A stretch of 10,247 bases of DNA from assembly GCA_018432565.1 (NCBI GenBank), contig JAHDSS010000005.1:1-10247 (forward strand), in the 5' to 3' direction. Origin of the DNA: Kiritimatiellia bacterium. GTDB lineage: Bacteria > Verrucomicrobiota > Kiritimatiellia > CAIQIC01 > Lenti-01. The position numbers and the translations under genes were made by a program. The notes under the pieces are model-generated. The model was not told the DNA's origin. It did no database searches and saw nothing but the letters and a program-made list of their open reading frames with translations. Positions 1 to 9,845 of this stretch are shown here, one piece after another (within the stretch, counting starts at the first letter, position 1; every line of letters starts with the position of its first letter).

Positions 1-480
1 CCAGGCCAGCCAGCCGAACGCCTGCATCCCCTGCAGCAGGCCCTGGAACAGGCTCATCCACAGGCTCGCGGCCAGCACCGCAAACGTCATGAACATCAGC
101 CCCGGCCCCACGTTCCAGAAGGCCGCCAGCGGTTCGCGGAAAAACCAGGCCCCCGCCACGATCGCCGCCGATATTCCGGCAAACAGAACCACCCAATGCA
201 GGAAAAACGGCAGGATCTCCTCGCGCCGCCCCGCGCGGTCCCTTGTCGAAATGAAATGCGCCAGCGTGTTCTGCAGCGCCAGCATCGGCGTGCTGACGAC
301 CAGAATAATGCCCAGCATCGCCACCAGCGAGCCGTACTCCGCATTGGGCAGCACGCGCTCCCGCCCCACCACCATGTGGAAAGCCGCATTGCACACCGCC
401 CCCGTCAGCGTGCCGGCCACCAGCATGCTGCCGTGCCGGAACAGTCCCGATGCGTCCCGCCCTGCCGGCGCGGCATTCAT
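1..480 (-). CDS. Wzx/MATE-like oligosaccharide flippase, N-terminal part (runs off left edge)
   Basis: The minus strand reads open from the ATG at 478-480 to the window edge, giving 160 residues with no stop, so the C-terminal part lies outside. The visible part is hydrophobic, with membrane segments at about residues 17-35, 48-70, 92-113 and 123-145. Short charged loops between them (for example STRDRAGRREE, about residues 77-87) give the spacing typical of the first helices of Wzx-type flippases, which move lipid-linked oligosaccharides across the inner membrane. No single catalytic motif defines this family, so the call rests on topology and on context. The ATG overlaps the stop of the upstream GT2 gene as ATGA, indicating translational coupling in one operon. 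Another multi-pass polysaccharide protein, such as an O-antigen ligase, is possible, but an N-terminal helix pair beginning right after a short cytoplasmic tail favours a flippase. Confidence 0.72.
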   Translation of the reverse strand, partial: MNAAPAGRDASGLFRHGSMLVAGTLTGAVCNAAFHMVVGRERVLPNAEYGSLVAMLGIILVVSTPMLALQNTLAHFISTRDRAGRREEILPFFLHWVVLFAGISAAIVAGAWFFREPLAAFWNVGPGLMFMTFAVLAASLWMSLFQGLLQGMQAFGWLAW

Positions 481-1253
481 CGGGGAGCCGGCTCCAGCTC
501 GATCACGCGCCCCAGCAGGCGGTCGTAGAGCGTCACCACCCAGCGCAGGGGCGAATACAGCAGGCGCAGCCGCACGATCGCCAGCAGCATCTGGAACGAC
601 ACCCGCCCGATCCGGAGCTTGGAGCCGGCCACGTCTCTCCACGTCGTCGGAATTTCCGCAATCCGGTATCCCGCCCGGCGGGTCTTGAACAGCATGTCCA
701 CGTCAAACGCCCATTTGGTCAGGCCGATGTGCGGCACAATCGCCCGCCACGCCTCGGCCGTCATCAGCTTCGCGCCGCATTGCGTATCCGTGATCTTCAG
801 TTTGAAAAGCGACCGGACCAGACCGTTGAACACCCGCGAAACGGCGCGGCGCTTCCAGGGCTGGCGGGGCCTCACCACCGCCCCCGGCAGGCGCCGCGAC
901 GCGATGATCAGCCCCGCACCGCCGATTTGCTTCACCAGATCCTCGAACGCCGCGGGCGGCGTGGCGCCGTCGGCGTCCACAAACCCGATCAGGTCGCCCC
1001 GGGCGATGCGCCCCCCCGCCATCACCGCCCCGCCCTTGCCGATCGGCTCCGGCGTCACCAGCACCCGCAGCTGGGGAAACCGCGGCTGGAAGTCCCGCAC
1101 CACGTCTTCCGTGCGGTCTTTCGATCCGTTGACGGATACAATGATCTCGAACTCATCGCCGTAGCCCGCCGAAAAGTGCGACAGATAGGCCTCCAGCATG
1201 CCGCCGATCCGGCATTCCTCGTTGTAGGCCGGCACGATGATGGACAGCTTCAT
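477..1253 (-). CDS. GT2 glycosyltransferase, dolichyl/polyprenyl-phosphate glucosyltransferase-like (ALG5 type)
   Basis: A complete 258-residue GT-A fold glycosyltransferase. Visible family 2 signatures are VPAYNEE (residues 7-13), VNGSKDRT (41-48), the nucleotide-binding stretch IGKGGAVMAG (71-80), the metal-binding DADG (93-96), ASRRLPGA (118-125) and DTQCGAK (156-162), followed by WAFDVDML. This set and order are those of the dolichyl-phosphate beta-glucosyltransferase group, which moves a hexose from a nucleotide sugar onto a polyprenyl phosphate at the cytoplasmic face of the membrane. There is no C-terminal pair of membrane helices, so it is probably soluble or peripheral. The start ATG overlaps the upstream stop as ATGA and the stop overlaps the next start in the same way. 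Placement between a GT-C enzyme and a flippase supports a donor-lipid role. The exact sugar cannot be read from sequence; mannose is an alternative to glucose. Confidence 0.88.
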   Translation of the reverse strand: MKLSIIVPAYNEECRIGGMLEAYLSHFSAGYGDEFEIIVSVNGSKDRTEDVVRDFQPRFPQLRVLVTPEPIGKGGAVMAGGRIARGDLIGFVDADGATPPAAFEDLVKQIGGAGLIIASRRLPGAVVRPRQPWKRRAVSRVFNGLVRSLFKLKITDTQCGAKLMTAEAWRAIVPHIGLTKWAFDVDMLFKTRRAGYRIAEIPTTWRDVAGSKLRIGRVSFQMLLAIVRLRLLYSPLRWVVTLYDRLLGRVIELEPAPR

Positions 1254-2980
1254 TCCCCGGCCGTTGCCGCCGGCTCCCCGGCGTCCTCGATCGGCTTGCG
1301 CCGCAGAATCTCCAGAACCGTTCCGGCCTGCCCGAAGCCCGGCACGCTTTCCACCGGCTCGAAGTGCTCCGCCAGGATCGCGTCCAGGGCCTGGCGGTCG
1401 TCGCGGGCGATTTCTTCGACCTCCGGCGACCGGATGGCCAGGCTGTACCCGCTGAACGCCGCGATCGGCGCGTTGGTGGAGGCCGCCAGCAGCTCCCGCA
1501 GCATGTCGCGGTTGACCACCCCGATCTGCTCCGCGCGCTCGCGGGGCCAGTCCGGATAATAGCTGAACGGCCCCATTTCAAGCCCGTGCGGCACCGGCAG
1601 GCCCGCCTCCACCGCCAGATACGTGTCCTGTGTCAGCAGCTCCGTGCCCTGTTCGGCCAGCGTCAGCTCCCGCACCCACCGGCCCATGTCCCGCAGCTGC
1701 GCCATGGGACTCTGCTCGCGCAGCCGCCACCAGATGCGGTCGCGCCCGGCCACGAACCAGTTCTGCGCCATCGGCGAGGAAAACACATGCAGCGCGCATA
1801 CCAGCCACAGGCCCGTCAGAACGGCCAGCCGCCGCGCGCTGCGCGCGTCGCCGGCGGGTTCTTCGGCGCACCGGGCTTCCATGCGCACCCACCAGCGGGA
1901 TGCCGCGACAGCCAGCGCGGCGCAGAAAACCGGATAGACCGGCACCTGATAGTCGTCGTACGGGAACGGCGCGGACAGATGGACCAGCGCCAGCGCCGCC
2001 ACCACCACCCACAGGAAGGCAGAAAAACACGGGGCCATGCCGTCGGCCCCGGCCTCCGGCCCCGGACCGGATGCGACGGCCGCTGCGGCCGCGCGGCCGG
2101 CCGGCCGCCGGAGCGCCGCCAGCAGCAGGAACAGACCGATCACCGCGGCCGGAAAATAGGCCTGAACCAGCCGCGACAGGCCGCCCGCCTTGTAGGCCCA
2201 TTGCACCATCCACGGCCCGGCCTCGCGCAGCGTGTGATATTCCAGGATGCCGAACCGGAATCCCTCGCGCCCCAGCGCCATGAACGGCAGCAACGTCACC
2301 GCCAGCCCCAGCCCCCCGCCCAGCGCGAAGTCCAGCCAGGCCCAGGCCTTGACGCGCTTGCGGCAGGCCAGCAGATACAGCCCGCCCAGCGCCAGCGCCG
2401 CCCCCAGCGAAATCCTCGTGGCCGCCGCGCACGCCAGCAGGAAGCCGGCCGCCGAGGCCGCCCGGAACGCATGGCGCCGCCCCACGAACGACAGCATGGC
2501 CAGCCCCGCCGCCAGAAACATCCCCGACAACGCATAGGTCTTCACCACCGTGGTGAAATACGACTGGTACAGATTGACCGCCGCCAGGATGAAGCAGATC
2601 CCGCCGGTCAGGCGCTGCGCCTGCCGCGGACCCGTTCGCATGGCCAGCCAGACCGCCGGCAGCAAACCCAGCGCTCCGAAAAACCAGGTCAGCGCCCGGC
2701 CGCCCGCCACCCCGAACCGCTCGACCCAGTGGTAGCCCCACGCATAGACCAGCGGCATCAGCGGCGGCTGGGTGAAGGCGAAATCCCGATACGGCAGCCG
2801 GCCGTCCCGGATCTGCCCGGCGGCATAGAGGTACCAGCCTTCATCCTGGTTCAGTTCCCCCATCCACAGATTCATGCCCGCCAGCCCCAGCCATGCCGCC
2901 CCGACCGCGACCGCCAGAAGCAAGTGCCCCCAGCGCCATGCCCGGCCATCCCTGCTCTCCGCCTGCGTTTTTGCTTCCAT
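1250..2980 (-). CDS. GT-C (GT39/ArnT-like) integral membrane glycosyltransferase
   Basis: A 576-residue multi-pass membrane protein. After a basic cytoplasmic N-terminus, helix 1 spans about residues 18-38. It is followed in the first periplasmic loop by NQDEGWYLYAAGQI with the acidic pair D46-E47, the hallmark catalytic position of GT39/GT83 enzymes, and then FAFTQPPLMPLVYAW, which matches the usual PPL/PPF segment at the start of the next helix. About ten helices follow, then a C-terminal soluble region of roughly 170 residues. Such enzymes take a sugar from a polyprenyl-phosphate donor and attach it to protein, lipid A or glycan outside the membrane. The acceptor is unknown here. An in-frame TTG at 3023-3025 would add 15 residues, but the ATG at 2978-2980 begins just before a normal N-terminus and has GGGGAG 13 bases upstream, so I use it. 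This is the first gene of the operon. Confidence 0.85.
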   Translation of the reverse strand: MEAKTQAESRDGRAWRWGHLLLAVAVGAAWLGLAGMNLWMGELNQDEGWYLYAAGQIRDGRLPYRDFAFTQPPLMPLVYAWGYHWVERFGVAGGRALTWFFGALGLLPAVWLAMRTGPRQAQRLTGGICFILAAVNLYQSYFTTVVKTYALSGMFLAAGLAMLSFVGRRHAFRAASAAGFLLACAAATRISLGAALALGGLYLLACRKRVKAWAWLDFALGGGLGLAVTLLPFMALGREGFRFGILEYHTLREAGPWMVQWAYKAGGLSRLVQAYFPAAVIGLFLLLAALRRPAGRAAAAAVASGPGPEAGADGMAPCFSAFLWVVVAALALVHLSAPFPYDDYQVPVYPVFCAALAVAASRWWVRMEARCAEEPAGDARSARRLAVLTGLWLVCALHVFSSPMAQNWFVAGRDRIWWRLREQSPMAQLRDMGRWVRELTLAEQGTELLTQDTYLAVEAGLPVPHGLEMGPFSYYPDWPRERAEQIGVVNRDMLRELLAASTNAPIAAFSGYSLAIRSPEVEEIARDDRQALDAILAEHFEPVESVPGFGQAGTVLEILRRKPIEDAGEPAATAGE

Positions 2981-3063
2981 GTAGATCGTCAGTCTCCCCA
3001 AACCCTCTTGCTCCCGCAATCCCAAAATGACCTCATCCCCGCCGCGCCCCCCACGATCCCGGG

Positions 3064-3112
3064 ATTATGGTTGTTATAACAACCATACTATGCTTGTTAT
3101 AACATCCATAAT
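3064..3112. promoter_or_regulatory. Divergent control region: two adjacent 22-bp palindromic operators flanked by outward CATAAT hexamers
   Basis: Site 1 (3066-3087) is a perfect 22-bp palindrome with half-site TATGGTTGTTA. Site 2 (3089-3110) is the same sequence with two changes (20 of 22 identical) and is an imperfect palindrome. One base, C3088, separates them, so their centres are 23 bp apart, about two helical turns on the same face. The block is symmetric about C3088: CATAAT reads outward on the plus strand at 3107-3112 and on the minus strand at 3064-3069. Each resembles a -10 element and would start transcription about 75 bases before the ATG on its side (2980 minus, 3194 plus). No good -35 is seen on either side, as expected for activator-dependent promoters. 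The binding protein family cannot be named with confidence. Confidence 0.75.
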
Positions 3113-3193
3113 GGCTTCAACGGCGATCACGGCCTCCGACGCCCGGCGCTTGTCCGTTCCGGATTGCGCGGGAGAACAAAACGGAGCATAGTG

Positions 3194-4960
3194 ATGCGCA
3201 TGAGTGAGTTGTCCCCGTCCATCCCGCCGGTTCCGATGTCGCGTCTGGAGGAGTATTCCTCCGCGGCGACGCTCTCGGACATGGAAATCTTCATCTTCCC
3301 CAGCCTGCTGTATCCGTTGGTGCTCGCCAACCTGATGTCGCCCCGGATCTGGCAGTGGCGCGAGGATCCCTGGTTCGCCAATTTCGCCAAACTGACGCCC
3401 TACCGGCGCATCCTGCGCCTGAAGCAGTTCATCATGGACCACTATGCGTTCAACCTGGACCTGGAAACCTGGGGGCTGACGACGCAGGAGAAGGAAATGG
3501 CGCGCTTTGCGCCGTTCATGGACCGGGACACCATCGCCCGGAGCAACGCGCTGTTCGGCTACGAAGGAGACCGGTTCTACTTCGACCTCGATATCCGCCG
3601 CCACTTCGGTCTCGACAAGTACACCCGCGACGTCATCCCCTACTGGAAGACTGAAACCGTCGAAGCCATGGATGCCTTCCGCTTCCAGCCCGGCCACGAC
3701 CAGGGCGCCGGCGAATGCGTGTCGCTCTCCACCCTCTATGCCGCCGCGCTCTACATCCTGTGCGGGATTTCCCTCGACGACATTTATCTGGTCGCCACCC
3801 CCCTGCATTCGCAAAACTTCGTGGATGTCCACGAAGGCATCCTGACCAACAACCGCCGGCTGGTCACCAAGGCCATGTGGTTCAACGGCACCGAACTCAG
3901 CGCCAAGGCCCGGCGCGCCCTTGAAAACGAGCAGATCACCATCGTCTCGCACTGCACCGGCTGGATCCATACGGTTTACCCGGAAGCCGGCATCGAGCCG
4001 GCGGCCTACGAACGCTTCCGGGAACGTCTCCGCGGGTTCCTGCAGACCGACGTGTCGCCTGAAATCCTGTTCAATTTCCTGCGCCAGAACCCCCAGCGGC
4101 AGCGCTGCTTCCAGATCGAACACATCGTGTTCGGCAAGCGCCGCTGGATTCCCGCCGAGCAGGCCTACGCCTTTGAAAACTCCTGTCCCTACAAGGTGTC
4201 CGACCGCACCCGCGAAAAACTGCTCGCCGAAATGGACGAGGATGAGTTTTTCCCCGAACCCCTGACCGACCGCATCCCCCTGAACAAGTTCGACGACTAT
4301 TTCCACCACAACCGCATTGACCTCGACAACGAGGATGACCGCCAGAAGCTCGGCCGCGAATTCAACTGCTACTCCTCCGACGCCTGCGACATCATCCGCG
4401 AGTTGCGCGCCTTCTGCAAACTGGAGCCGCGCTGGCCCGATGCCGGCGGAGAGAAAACTGTTGCGCCCGGGCCGCGCATCGACCTGCCCCCCGGCCTGTC
4501 GCGCGAGCAAATCGTGGAAAGGCTGGAAGCCCAGCGGGCGACCAACCCCGCGGCGGACCTGGCGTTCTATGCCGCCCGCGATCTGGCCCGCACCGATCCG
4601 CGCCCCTTCTTCAAGGCCGCCATCGAGCGTTCGCCCGTCTGCGTCGAAGCCGCCCGCGCCATGGATCCGGCCGCGGCCGCGGCCGTCCTCCGCGACATGC
4701 CCGGCGAGTCCATCTATGACGCCACCCGCGCCGCCCAGCCCGACGAAGTCTGGAATTCGCGCCGCGGCGACGGCCTGGAAAAAGCCGTCACCCTCGCCGC
4801 CATCCTCCATGCCCGGCAGCCGGAGATTCCCTTTGCCGTTCGCGCCGACGGGGAAACCGCCACACTGTCGTTCGACGGAACCGACCATGCCTTCCCCACC
4901 CGGAAAGGCCTGACCCTCGATCTGGAATGGCCCCTGCGGGACAGCCCCGGTTCCGATTAG
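3194..4960 (+). CDS. Uncharacterised 588-residue protein with transglutaminase-like Cys/His core
   Basis: I do not recognise a named family. The middle of the protein carries GAGECVSLSTLYAAALYIL (from about residue 171, with Cys175 at the start of a helix). Then come YLVATPLHSQNF with His205, and a following strand GILTNNRRLVTK with Asn219/Asn220. Order and spacing resemble the Cys-His-Asp/Asn core of transglutaminase-like peptidases and amidases. An N-terminal helical region (residues 30-165, rich in Trp, Tyr and charged residues) precedes it. A long acidic region and an Ala-rich helical C-terminus (about 435-588) follow. No signal peptide or clear membrane helix is seen, so it is probably cytoplasmic. 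ATG 3194 is preferred over an in-frame TTG at 3164 because GGAG (3183-3186) lies 7 bases upstream. It is divergent from the glycan operon and shares its operators. Its stop overlaps the convergent stop of the next gene. Confidence 0.6.
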   Translation: MRMSELSPSIPPVPMSRLEEYSSAATLSDMEIFIFPSLLYPLVLANLMSPRIWQWREDPWFANFAKLTPYRRILRLKQFIMDHYAFNLDLETWGLTTQEKEMARFAPFMDRDTIARSNALFGYEGDRFYFDLDIRRHFGLDKYTRDVIPYWKTETVEAMDAFRFQPGHDQGAGECVSLSTLYAAALYILCGISLDDIYLVATPLHSQNFVDVHEGILTNNRRLVTKAMWFNGTELSAKARRALENEQITIVSHCTGWIHTVYPEAGIEPAAYERFRERLRGFLQTDVSPEILFNFLRQNPQRQRCFQIEHIVFGKRRWIPAEQAYAFENSCPYKVSDRTREKLLAEMDEDEFFPEPLTDRIPLNKFDDYFHHNRIDLDNEDDRQKLGREFNCYSSDACDIIRELRAFCKLEPRWPDAGGEKTVAPGPRIDLPPGLSREQIVERLEAQRATNPAADLAFYAARDLARTDPRPFFKAAIERSPVCVEAARAMDPAAAAAVLRDMPGESIYDATRAAQPDEVWNSRRGDGLEKAVTLAAILHARQPEIPFAVRADGETATLSFDGTDHAFPTRKGLTLDLEWPLRDSPGSD

Positions 4961-5140: not shown

Positions 5141-7252
5141 TCAGGGGACTCCCCATCCCAGCCACAGCCCGGCCTGAACCACCGCGAACGTGACCCCCCA
5201 GGCGATGACGGTCATGCCCACCAGCATGCCCAGCGCCCAGCTCCAGGAATTCGTTTCGCGCCAGGTGACGGCAATGGTCGCCATGCACGGAGCGCTCAGC
5301 AGGCAGAACAGCATCATGGCCAGTCCCTGCAGCGGCGAATACTGTTCCCGCAGGGTTCGCCGCAGGCTGTCGGGCTCGTCCTCCACGCTCCCCAGCGAAA
5401 ACACAATGCCCATCTGCGCGACAAACACTTCCTTGGCGGCAAAGGCTCCGACCAGCGCCGTCCCCACGCGCCAGTCAAACCCCAGGGGCCGCAGCACGGG
5501 CTCCAGCCCCCGGCCGATCCGGCCGATGGCTGTATGCGCCAGGCGTTCCGCCTGCCACGCCGCCTCCAGCTCCGCCGCCTCGGCGGGGCCCGCCGCCTGC
5601 TCGATGGCCGCGGCGTAGTCGCGGCTGAATTCCGCGCGCCGCGGAAACGTCCCCAGCGCCCACAGCACGATGGAAATGGCCAGAATCACCGTGCCGGCCT
5701 TCTGCAGATACATCCAGGCGCGGTCCCACATGTGGATGCCCACCGAGCGCCACGTGGGCAGCCGGAAGGGCGGCAGTTCCATCACGAACGGCGCGCTGTC
5801 CCCGCGCAGCAGCGTGCCGCGCAGCAGCCGCGCCACGCCGATCGCCGCCAGGATGCCCGCCATGTACAGGCCCCACAGCACCCATCCCCGCCATGCCGGC
5901 GCGAAAAAGGCCGGAATCAGCAGCGCATAGATGGTCAGCCGGGCGCCGCAGCTGACAAACGGCGATACCATGATTGTCGTGAAGCGGTCTCGTTTGCTCT
6001 CCAGCATGCGCGTCGCCAGAATCGCCGGCACGGTGCAGCCCAGGCCGATCAGCATCGGAATGAAGCTTTTCCCGTGCAGCCCCATTTTGTGCATCACCCG
6101 GTCCATCAGGAACGCCACCCGGGCCATGTACCCCGTGTCTTCCAGAAAGGCAATGCCCAGGAACAGCAGCAGAATGTTCGGCAGGAAGGAAATCACCCCC
6201 CCCACGCCGCCGATGATGCCATCCACCACCAGCGACTGCAGCAGCGGCGCCGCGCCGTCCGGCCAGACCGCCAGCACCCGATCCGACAACCAGCCCAGGC
6301 CGGCTTCGATCCACTGCATCGGCGGTTCGCCCAGCGCAAACACCAGATTGAACAGCGCCCACATCAGCGCCACGAAGATCGGCAGTCCCCAGACGCGATG
6401 CAGCAGCACGGCGTCCAGGCGCCTCGTGCGGTCGCGCCGCACGTGATGGGCTTCCGACTGGCTGGCTTCCGTGGCCGCGCCAAGGGCAAAGCCGTAGCGG
6501 GCTTCGGCCAGTTGCACGTCCACGGGACGCCCCCCTCGTTTTTCCAGGCGGCCCGCTTCCTGTCCCGCCGCCTCCACCGCGCCGGCCGGCGCGTGCGGAT
6601 CGTCCAGCCCGTCCAGCAGCGCGATCGCCCGGCGGCGAGCCGACACCGCATCGTCGCCTTCGAAGCGTTCGGCAATCGCCGCCACAGACGATTCGATATC
6701 CAGCCCGTAGAAGACCCGGCCCGTGCAGATGCGCCCGGACGCGGCCGTCTCCAGCGCCGCCTCCAGCAGCGCGCCCACCCCGTCGCCGTTGCTGCCGTTC
6801 GTGGGCACGACCGGCCCGCCCAGCAGGCTCGACAGCAGGTCCAGGTCGAACCGCAGTCCGCTGGCCTCGGCCTCGTCGCTCATGTTCAGCGCATACACCA
6901 CCGGAACGCCCATTTCGGTCAGCTGCGCCGTCAGGTGCAGATTGCGTTCCAGGTTGGTCGCATCCATCACCTGGATCACCACGTCTGCGGAGCCCGACAG
7001 AATCTCGTCGCGGGCGATGGATTCCTCGGGCGAGGCCGCCAGCAGGCTGTACACCCCCGGTAGGTCCACCAGTTCAATGCGCGTTTTGCCGCGCGTGAAC
7101 ACCGCCGACTTTTTCTCCACCGTCACGCCGGGATAGTTGCCCACGTGCTGGTGGGCCCCCGCCATCCAGTTGAAGACGCTGGTCTTGCCGCTGTTGGGAT
7201 TCCCGGCCAGCAGGATGACCCGGCCCGGCGCGCCGGCGGTCTTTCCGTTCAT
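5141..7252 (-). CDS. feoB: Ferrous iron transport protein B (FeoB)
   Basis: A 703-residue Fe(II) transporter, the usual length. The N-terminal G domain has G1 GNPNSGKTS (17-25), switch I NYPGVTVEKK (39-48), G3 DLPG (63-66), G4 NMSD (123-126) and a G5-like segment near SNGDG. A helical GDI-like domain follows, then the membrane part with both gate regions: GCTVPAILATRM to SPFVSCGARL (about 403-435), AKEVFVAQMG, and SAPCMATIAVTWRETNSW with Cys656. Together these show GTP-dependent ferrous iron import across the inner membrane. The ATG at 7252 has AGGGGG just upstream. The alternative ATG at 7270 overlaps the dtxR stop as ATGA and would add six residues; both are plausible. It lies between the DtxR-FeoA regulator and the Cys-rich FeoB partner on one transcript. 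Confidence 0.95.
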   Translation of the reverse strand: MNGKTAGAPGRVILLAGNPNSGKTSVFNWMAGAHQHVGNYPGVTVEKKSAVFTRGKTRIELVDLPGVYSLLAASPEESIARDEILSGSADVVIQVMDATNLERNLHLTAQLTEMGVPVVYALNMSDEAEASGLRFDLDLLSSLLGGPVVPTNGSNGDGVGALLEAALETAASGRICTGRVFYGLDIESSVAAIAERFEGDDAVSARRRAIALLDGLDDPHAPAGAVEAAGQEAGRLEKRGGRPVDVQLAEARYGFALGAATEASQSEAHHVRRDRTRRLDAVLLHRVWGLPIFVALMWALFNLVFALGEPPMQWIEAGLGWLSDRVLAVWPDGAAPLLQSLVVDGIIGGVGGVISFLPNILLLFLGIAFLEDTGYMARVAFLMDRVMHKMGLHGKSFIPMLIGLGCTVPAILATRMLESKRDRFTTIMVSPFVSCGARLTIYALLIPAFFAPAWRGWVLWGLYMAGILAAIGVARLLRGTLLRGDSAPFVMELPPFRLPTWRSVGIHMWDRAWMYLQKAGTVILAISIVLWALGTFPRRAEFSRDYAAAIEQAAGPAEAAELEAAWQAERLAHTAIGRIGRGLEPVLRPLGFDWRVGTALVGAFAAKEVFVAQMGIVFSLGSVEDEPDSLRRTLREQYSPLQGLAMMLFCLLSAPCMATIAVTWRETNSWSWALGMLVGMTVIAWGVTFAVVQAGLWLGWGVP

Positions 7253-7266
7253 GGCGCCCCCCCTGT

Positions 7267-7956
7267 TCATACCAGCCCGGGCCGCCACTTCACCCGGATG
7301 TTCGCCGCTTCGGCCTTGCGCATGGACAGCCGGTAGCCGCGCACCTCCACCGCGATGGGATCGCCCAGCGGCGCGACCCGTTCCACGGCGATCAACACCC
7401 CGGGGGTCACGCCCATTTCCACCAGTCGCTTGCGCAGCGAGCCATCCACGTTCACCGACATCACCACCCCGCGAACGCCCTGCGGCAGTTCGTTCAGCCC
7501 CGACTCCACTCCCGGCGCCCGCTCTCCCCGGGCCGACTCCCGCGCCACCTTCCACTTTTCCATCATGCCCGGATGCTGGCGCAGAAAGTCGCCCAGCAAG
7601 CCCATCCGCTCCACCACCATCGGCGTGGCATCGTGCTCCATGCCGCAGGCCGCCACCTCGGCATCCTCCGGCGCCAGCCCGAGGGTCTCGGTGAAAAACC
7701 GCCGCAGGGACACATGACGCCCCGCGATGTCTTCGGCGACTCGGCGCCCCTTGGGCGTCAGGCCCACCGACCCGTACGGCGCATAATCGGCCAGCCCCTG
7801 CTCGTTCAGGGACTTCAGCGCGGCGGAAACCGTCGAAGGCTGCACGTTCAGGGCCTGGGCGATATCCCCGGTCCGCGCTCCCCGAGGCGTCTCCGACAGC
7901 CGCAGAATCGTCTCCAGGTAATCTTCCGCCTTGGCGCTCAACCGCTCGATTTTCAT
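7267..7956 (-). CDS. DtxR/MntR-family metalloregulator with fused C-terminal FeoA domain
   Basis: A 229-residue protein in three parts. The N-terminal winged helix-turn-helix (about 9-70) contains RTGDIAQALNVQPSTVSAALKSLNEQGL. The metal-binding dimerisation domain (about 75-135) has H81 in AGRHVSLRRFF and C104, E107 and H108 in ACGMEHD. The FeoA/SH3-like domain (about 154-224) has LPQGVRG, RLVEMGVTPG and APLGDPIAVEVRGYRLSMRKAEAANI, a close match to stand-alone FeoA. Aligned by eye, D12 and E15 correspond to MntR Asp8 and Glu11, whereas C104 corresponds to DtxR Cys102 rather than MntR Glu99, so the metal site is mixed. It probably represses its own feo operon when metal is replete, and its FeoA domain may contact FeoB. 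Start ATG 7956 gives a normal N-terminus; GGAG is 14 bases upstream, which is long. Its stop is at 7267-7269, overlapping an ATG as ATGA. Confidence 0.9.
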   Translation of the reverse strand: MKIERLSAKAEDYLETILRLSETPRGARTGDIAQALNVQPSTVSAALKSLNEQGLADYAPYGSVGLTPKGRRVAEDIAGRHVSLRRFFTETLGLAPEDAEVAACGMEHDATPMVVERMGLLGDFLRQHPGMMEKWKVARESARGERAPGVESGLNELPQGVRGVVMSVNVDGSLRKRLVEMGVTPGVLIAVERVAPLGDPIAVEVRGYRLSMRKAEAANIRVKWRPGLV

Positions 7957-9205: not shown

Positions 9206-9526
9206 TTACGCCATCGCCACCTTGACGTGGGGAACGTATCCCAGGTCTTCCCGAATAGCGGCCACAATTTTGGCGAGGGTGCGGGCCGTCGGATTTCCGT
9301 CCGTGGACAGGATTCGGTGCAGGGACTTTTCATTGCAGCCTGTTTGCCGAGCCAATTCCTTGAATGTGATCTCCGCGTGAACCAGATCGCGCAGAATGGA
9401 CAGGCCCTCGGCCGTTTCGCCATCCAGGATCGCATCCAGCGCCTCGGCATACAGCGCCTTGGCAAACGCCGGATCCCGTTTGATTCGCGCCTGGACCGTT
9501 GCCTTGTATTCCCGGGTCAATGCCAT
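9206..9526 (-). CDS. XRE-family antitoxin of a HigBA-like toxin-antitoxin pair
   Basis: A 106-residue protein matching the 'probable addiction module antidote protein' group. The start MALTREYKATVQARIKRDP and the middle LRDLVHAEITFKELA are characteristic. The helix-turn-helix (about 54-91) reads TFKELARQTGCNEKSLHRI and then GNPTARTLAKIVAAI. It should bind and neutralise the upstream toxin and repress the shared promoter. The start at 9526 has a very good ribosome-binding site, GAGGTGA, five bases upstream; this includes the toxin's stop codon, so the two genes are only 4 bases apart. That strong site, compared with the weak one of the toxin, would favour antitoxin excess. An in-frame upstream extension to 9583 lies inside the toxin and is rejected. 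The region looks less G+C-rich than the neighbouring operons, consistent with transfer. Confidence 0.9.
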   Translation of the reverse strand: MALTREYKATVQARIKRDPAFAKALYAEALDAILDGETAEGLSILRDLVHAEITFKELARQTGCNEKSLHRILSTDGNPTARTLAKIVAAIREDLGYVPHVKVAMA

Positions 9527-9530
9527 TTTG

Positions 9531-9845
9531 TCACCTCGCTGCCTTGTGGCGTTTCCATCTCTCCACCGCCGCACGGATGTCAACGGTCTGGCGCCTCTTT
9601 GTCCCGCCGCCGAGCAGAATCACCAGCACCTTGCCGTCCCGTCCGTAGTACACGCGGTAACCAGGCCCAAAATCCATCCGCAACTCGCACACACCCTCTC
9701 GCAATGCCTTGGAATCACTGAAGTTCCCGGTTTCCATCCGGCGGACGTAACGATCCACGCGTACCGCAGTTGGCGGATCCAACCGGTCAAACCAGTCACC
9801 AAAGGGAGATCGCCCTTCCTCCAAGTATTCCCGGACTTCAATCAT
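9531..9845 (-). CDS. RelE/Gp49-like toxin (addiction module killer protein)
   Basis: A 104-residue protein with the features of the phage Gp49-like/HigB-type killer family: MIEVREYL at the start, SPFGDWFDRLD (13-23), GNFSDSKALREGVCELR (40-56), MDFGPGYRVYYG (57-68) and LLGGGTKRRQTVDI (77-90). Members with the RelE fold are mRNA interferases that cut transcripts on the ribosome; activity here is inferred from family. The length is normal and the motifs are intact, so the module is probably functional. Gene order is toxin first, as in higBA. The start ATG 9845 is preceded by AACAGG directly against the codon, which is no useful ribosome-binding site, and the predicted promoter places the transcript start about 3 bases upstream. 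Confidence 0.92.
   Translation of the reverse strand: MIEVREYLEEGRSPFGDWFDRLDPPTAVRVDRYVRRMETGNFSDSKALREGVCELRMDFGPGYRVYYGRDGKVLVILLGGGTKRRQTVDIRAAVERWKRHKAAR

Follow-up and report, generated by a model that had tools for sequence, protein, structure and literature searches.

A 49-bp tandem palindrome between two divergent genes is one copy of a dispersed intergenic element in a Kiritimatiellia genome

Does the 49-bp double palindrome between two divergent genes of this Kiritimatiellia bacterium serve these genes only, or is it one instance of something more widespread? The original prediction, made on the window (the whole stretch of 10,247 nucleotides analysed here), proposed a private switch that joins a glycan gene to a 588-residue protein.

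As predicted, the element contains two 22-bp palindromes that lie one base apart and differ at two positions (91% identity), with a start-to-start distance of 23 bp (Table 1). The core TTGTTATAACAA occurs twice in the window at up to two mismatches, compared with 0.03 occurrences expected, and two occurrences are reached in 0 of 200 shuffles. The outward-facing CATAAT hexamers are indeed symmetric, as had been proposed, but each has four bases in common with its palindrome and is thus not an independent flanking feature. At 10.5 bp per helical turn, the 23-bp spacing corresponds to ~2.2 turns, so the proposed binding of two dimers to the same DNA face holds only approximately.

Table 1 Features of the window, arrays of the assembly, and other repeats. 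Positions refer to the window unless an L handle is given.
Feature	Position	Strand	Details
Family 2 glycosyltransferase gene	477-1253		next to the 1250-2980 ORF
ORF, glycan gene of the original prediction	1250-2980	-	no Pfam or NCBIfam match
Likely promoter of the 1250-2980 gene	2991-3019	-	TTGCGG (3019-3014), 17 nt, GAGACT (2996-2991)
Block GCAATCCCAAAAT	3016-3028		common to the window and 8 relatives
Extra DNA with array, 123-133 bp	3029-3163	.	absent at the same gene pair of 8 relatives; limits approximate
49-bp inverted-repeat element	3064-3112	.	arms of 24 nt, 3064-3087 and 3089-3112, 1 nt between (repeat search of the window); centre, base 3088
CATAAT, outward	3064-3069	-	symmetric with the next about base 3088
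CATAAT, outward	3107-3112	+
Unit 1, perfect 22-bp palindrome	3066-3087	.	TATGGTTGTTATAACAACCATA
Unit 2, imperfect 22-bp palindrome	3089-3110	.	TATGCTTGTTATAACATCCATA
Likely promoter of the 3200-4960 gene	3164-3192	+	TTGCGC (3164-3169), 17 nt, CATAGT (3187-3192), 7 nt to ATG at 3200
Conserved protein, transglutaminase-like in the original prediction	3200-4960	+	no Pfam or NCBIfam match
feoB	about 5141-7255	-
DtxR-FeoA fusion regulator gene	7267-7956	-	start at 7956
Second tandem-palindrome family, TTTTCCAYNNNRTGGAAAA	8913-8984; L023 4667-4799; L128 about 10679-10916
HigB/HigA-like toxin-antitoxin pair	9206-9845	-	TIGR02683 above cut-off, TIGR02684 below
Array C391 (window locus)			glycan ORF / 3200-4960 protein, divergent
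Array C57			pyk > DUF6941
Array C75			glycosyltransferase (below cut-off) / hypothetical, divergent
Array C101			rpoC > priA
Array C176			hycI-type protease > marR-kamA
Array C203			thrC, start facing the array
Array C268			rplT > < phosphatase-like, convergent
Array C508			ORF > degT aminotransferase
Array C522/C552			heptosyltransferase > epimerase
Array C561			thioredoxin-like / glgB, divergent
Repeat of 110-290 bp	L020 177-464, 1137-1423, 2895-3026; L021 1863-1985; L024 2440-2549
REP-like palindromes at two Y1_Tnp loci	L054 338-369, 1433-1460; L055 1402-1430, 2479-2501		CTGACCCCTTTT..., TTGTCAGTGCCTGACACTGACAA

The 49-bp element is one copy of a dispersed intergenic element, in which two or three palindromes follow each other head-to-tail with an exact 23-bp period. 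A search of the 2.5-Mb assembly with the 20-mer at up to three mismatches gives 25 places, with none for the reversed control. In particular, 24 of the 25 places fall into arrays on 11 contigs, and one is a lone variant at C352. Two of the contigs, C522 and C552, share 98% identity around the array (306 and 290 bp) and probably represent one locus. The 11 contig places thus correspond to ten distinct arrays (eight doublets and two triplets), which lie beside unrelated genes. All 13 adjacent pairs, with C522 and C552 both included, have their units 23 bp apart, and in a scan open to spacings of 18-60 bp this unit recurs at no distance other than 23 (and 46) bp. A degenerate tandem pattern finds the same 13 pairs, with CATA-S-TATG at every junction; the 23-bp period was fixed in this pattern beforehand, which therefore is no test of the period. 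A motif whose pairs would mark further carriers is ATGNWTGTTATAACAWNCAT, and most array units carry TTGTTATAACAA or are mixed. A looser degenerate search gives no further array, and what it adds outside the arrays is weak (C96, C164, and C352); it reached 2-3 mismatches, so more decayed lone copies could escape. With 604 contigs and 82.9% completeness, the assembly may lack array sites as well as the regulator.

By our reading of the ORFs, all ten arrays appear to be intergenic, with long antisense ORFs that overlap some arrays in this GC-rich DNA discounted. The original prediction named many unrelated sites, including sites inside genes, as an outcome that would speak against it; the many unrelated sites were found (ten distinct loci), and by the same reading copies inside genes were not. 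Ten neighbours were identified with Pfam and the others by eye from translations. Several of them are envelope-glycan genes, and no single theme spans the whole set (by eye). The array at C268 sits between convergent genes, and a promoter-type function cannot account for it.

The relatives provide array-free versions of two loci, the window gene pair and pyk-DUF6941. The 3200-4960 protein is encoded in 14 of the 17 genomes of the family, own included. The divergent glycan ORF is kept in eight of the 13 other genomes, and the array is present in none of these eight. The distance from block GCAAYCYCAAAAT to the start codon is 38-48 bp in 8/8 relatives, versus 171 bp in the window. At pyk-DUF6941, the array is absent from all 15 relative loci displayed, in 12 of which pyk is directly upstream (by eye). 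Two further relatives' loci also lack arrays, but their neighbours differ. At up to three mismatches, the tandem pattern is found in 1 of 96 genomes, its own, and in none of the 95 relatives, two of which belong to the same genus; this search of the relatives covered nothing but the tandem pattern, and could have missed lone units and arrays of greater divergence. Tandem palindromes of any type were also sought in stretches of G002 (~176 kb) and G007 (200 kb); those found belong to the TTTTCCA family or to a few other kinds, none of them that of the arrays. The exact tandem pattern matches no contig of genome_contigs or viral_contigs, sets from which the own and very near genomes are possibly left out. 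As for the single unit, its only exact match in genome_contigs is in a Methylotenera MAG, and viral_contigs has none.

The same comparison points to likely promoters, in blocks that lie outside the array. The arrangement of TTGCGG, 17 nt, and GAGACT upstream of the 1250-2980 gene has counterparts in the relatives, with the spacing read by eye. On the other side, the order of a TTG hexamer, then another hexamer, then an ATG a few bases on recurs in the relatives and at 3164-3200 (by eye), and the 3200-4960 protein is perhaps read from a leaderless transcript. A consensus promoter scan of 2950-3250 called neither block. Because the relatives' promoter-like blocks recur outside the array, the CATAAT hexamers are part of the element, and it is unlikely that they act as promoters or mark the start sites that the original prediction placed there.

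Pieces longer than the array have been copied along with it at least twice. When the 137-bp stretch 3029-3165 of the window is used as query, its bases 10-108 resemble C203 at 87%, and the remaining matches cover the array and a few surrounding bases only. The flank of the C508 array matches the 3′ end of pyk that adjoins the C57 array, at 85% across 128 bp that include the array. In addition, C203 and C391 have 24 of 27 bp in common next to the array, and this score of 21 is reached by 1 of 5000 random pairs. For most arrays, the flank comparison found nothing significant in common and no mobile-unit ends. As a separate observation, a repeat of 110-290 bp, 83-94% identical between copies, is present on three array contigs.

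The variation between units is confined. Over 44 half-sites we count 28 differences, 21 of them distinct by array, position, and base, and every one lies within positions 4-7 of 10. Positions 1-3 and 8-10 are invariant, leaving ATG, TTATAA, and CAT constant in the 22 units, a count that leaves out C552 (the duplicate of C522), the single variant at C352, and the weak matches at C96 and C164. Detection stopped at 2-3 mismatches and may have missed units with stronger decay; in addition, copies derived from one element do not count as independent. Such confinement to four of ten half-site positions suggests sequence-specific protein binding, and could equally stem from transposition machinery. 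Position 5 is either A or T, and the two halves are unmatched there in 11 of the 22 units, as expected of a degenerate DNA contact and not of a hairpin that needs pairs.

Our preferred reading, to which we give an about even chance, is that the arrays are a species-restricted dispersed family of candidate tandem binding sites for one dimeric protein. Each palindrome would bind one dimer of the sequence-specific protein, and dimers on neighbouring palindromes would bind side by side. The earlier proposal of two adjacent dimer-type sites is plausible, given the constrained site positions and the regular period. The element would have been copied into places upstream of existing promoters. In the window, the array would lie ~45-50 bp outside the genes' -35-like hexamers, with its centre ~110 bp from each start codon, and any effect on the two genes would come from the array and not from the CATAAT hexamers. 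In tandem operators such as those of lambda CI and the ARG boxes, adjacent dimers occupy palindromic sites about two helical turns apart. By analogy, the arrays, with two to three palindromes about two turns apart, would suit side-by-side dimers. They differ from these operators in their sequence, in their ten dispersed copies, and in that a matching repressor gene was not identified; the candidate binders examined were MarR, Fur, and DtxR-FeoA.

Four other explanations are to be weighed against tandem binding sites. The least probable is a dedicated bidirectional switch, in which the CATAAT hexamers would be the promoters of the glycan ORF and of the gene for the 588-residue protein: the symmetric layout between two divergent starts is real, but the same array lies at nine other distinct loci, and the promoter-like blocks common to eight array-free relatives lie outside it. 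The claim of a private switch is thus abandoned, with ten loci beside unrelated genes and eight relatives that keep the gene pair without the array. A transcribed RNA hairpin, acting as an mRNA stabiliser or in a terminator-like manner, is highly improbable. The inverted repeat is able to fold on itself, and two copies lie 18 and 50 bp past the stop codons of pyk and the heptosyltransferase gene; against this, position 5 is unpaired in half of the units, a terminator-like site is absent from 2950-3250 of the window, and the window has no Rfam match. Pairing between units, as in a REPIN-type long hairpin, is not above the random level either (11 mismatches in 8 dimers, versus 13.7 at random, p = 0.19), so we find no support for this fold. 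Chromosome-organisation sites read by a nucleoid or partition protein, comparable to those of SlmA, Noc, MatP, or parS, are improbable, if somewhat less so. About ten dispersed palindromic sites without a functional theme would suit such a role, but site systems of this type are usually common to related species, and the arrays are absent from the 95 relatives.

The strong rival, which ranks next behind tandem binding sites and which we consider possible at clearly less than even chances, is a REP/REPIN- or MITE-like repeat without regulatory role, spreading for itself, with palindromes that serve mobility. REP/REPIN elements are mobilised by RAYT transposases. They are described as short, dispersed palindromes that form doublets outside genes and are sometimes species-specific (REPIN, PMC3116915; REP, PMC3733652). 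In terms of these descriptions, the arrays resemble REP/REPIN elements as short palindromic doublets that are extragenic, dispersed, and species-restricted: all ten have two or three units and are intergenic by ORF reading, their neighbours are unrelated, one site is convergent, and among the genomes searched they are restricted to one species. The array comes with extra DNA relative to the relatives, flanks have been copied along, the genome has 12 Y1_Tnp (RAYT-type) genes above cut-off, and the same genomes harbour a second, family-wide tandem-palindrome repeat. However, neither the GTAG or CGTC tag nor the RAYT linkage of REP/REPIN elements was found. No tag lies beside the units, whose 22 outward flanks start with AAT, ACT, AGT, AAA, AAG, or ATC (flanks by eye). 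The 12 Y1_Tnp genes all lie on contigs other than those with arrays (the contigs are short), and of the eight Y1_Tnp loci scanned, four have other palindromes and four have none. The arrays also occupy only about ten loci, with no lone decayed copies or singlets at the mismatch limit, and keep the fixed 23-bp period. Moreover, terminal repeats and a target duplication were not seen by eye at the window block. REP-like palindromes of other sequence are present at two of the Y1_Tnp loci (Table 1).

Still rather unlikely, on our estimate, is a mobile operator, that is, a self-spreading 49-bp tandem-operator element that would place some ten unrelated loci of one species under a single regulator and would have been caught early, while array-free sites survive in relatives. 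It may be part of a wider habit of the family, with intergenic tandem-palindrome arrays of fixed helical spacing. If the arrays are operators, they would make up a newly assembled regulon, and since relatives keep array-free ancestors, its spread would be datable for each locus separately. Should they be REP-like, the arrays would form a class of low copy number that lacks both the usual tags and a linked transposase gene. In either reading, an operator-like palindrome is to be counted genome-wide before it is called a private switch.

The statement that the window has no regulator gene is wrong, as both a DtxR-FeoA fusion and an HTH antitoxin-like protein are encoded there. The DtxR-FeoA fusion is disfavoured as binder, because the protein is 87% identical in G002, which has no array. 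The fusion gene is followed by feoB; together they form an iron uptake locus that has a regulator domain of its own, and in G002 the locus likewise lies near the 3200-4960 homologue. A HigB/HigA-like toxin-antitoxin pair is also encoded in the window (Table 1).

Beyond the window, the product of marR at C176 has no close orthologue in the 16 other genomes of the family (12 have a match at 24-38% identity, four have none). At E ≤ 1e-20, relatives of this gene are found in 17 of 387 genomes of the phylum, own included. Within 250 bp upstream of marR, TTCGN4CGAA occurs exactly at 5 of the 17 loci and with up to one mismatch at 11 of 17, compared with 0.06 and 1.38, respectively, expected from shuffles; the own copy is exact and lies at -68. 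By comparison, TGTTATAACA is exact upstream of marR at the own locus only. MarR was rejected as specific binder, since the gene and its relatives in the phylum have this other palindrome. Closer public homologues of the protein are 94% (perhaps the same species) and 79% identical.

Fur/Zur is disfavoured as well, because the sole FUR-family gene found resembles those of the array-free relatives G002 and G007 (65% identity). The Zur box of the Rhodobacter group, among those of alphaproteobacteria, is GATATGTTATAACATATC in the excerpt cited (PMC2706843), and has ATGTTATAACAT in common with two C508 units. The 12-bp core of this box is found in only 2 of 22 units, those with A at position 5 on both halves. 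Unlike in a Zur regulon, a zinc gene was not recognised beside the arrays, and most units belong to the TTGTTATAACAA or mixed kinds. In the literature, the matches listed brought up no evident work on repeats of this kind in Kiritimatiellota or on TTTTCCA palindromes, which is no proof of absence; for the core string, the matches listed are two mitochondrial genomes and one plague vaccine paper.

The protein encoded at 3200-4960 belongs to a large family, with E ≤ 0.001 for 6057 of 8000 scored candidates, and the labels of its homologues, which place the organism probably in Kiritimatiellia, also include Spartobacteria, Opitutae, and Lentisphaerota. An alignment of 34 sequences shows Cys173 and His203 to be invariant. 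Among solved structures, a profile search found one match, which is not meaningful (E = 0.63).

The second tandem-palindrome family, TTTTCCAYNNNRTGGAAAA, is possibly more interesting than the 49-bp element. Its centre spacings alternate between about 22 and 31 bp. The genome has 204 copies, and 13 of the 16 other genomes of the family have 9-253 (none in G003, G006, and G009). Beyond the bacterial family, it is found in 7 of 79 genomes, with 0 for the reversed control.
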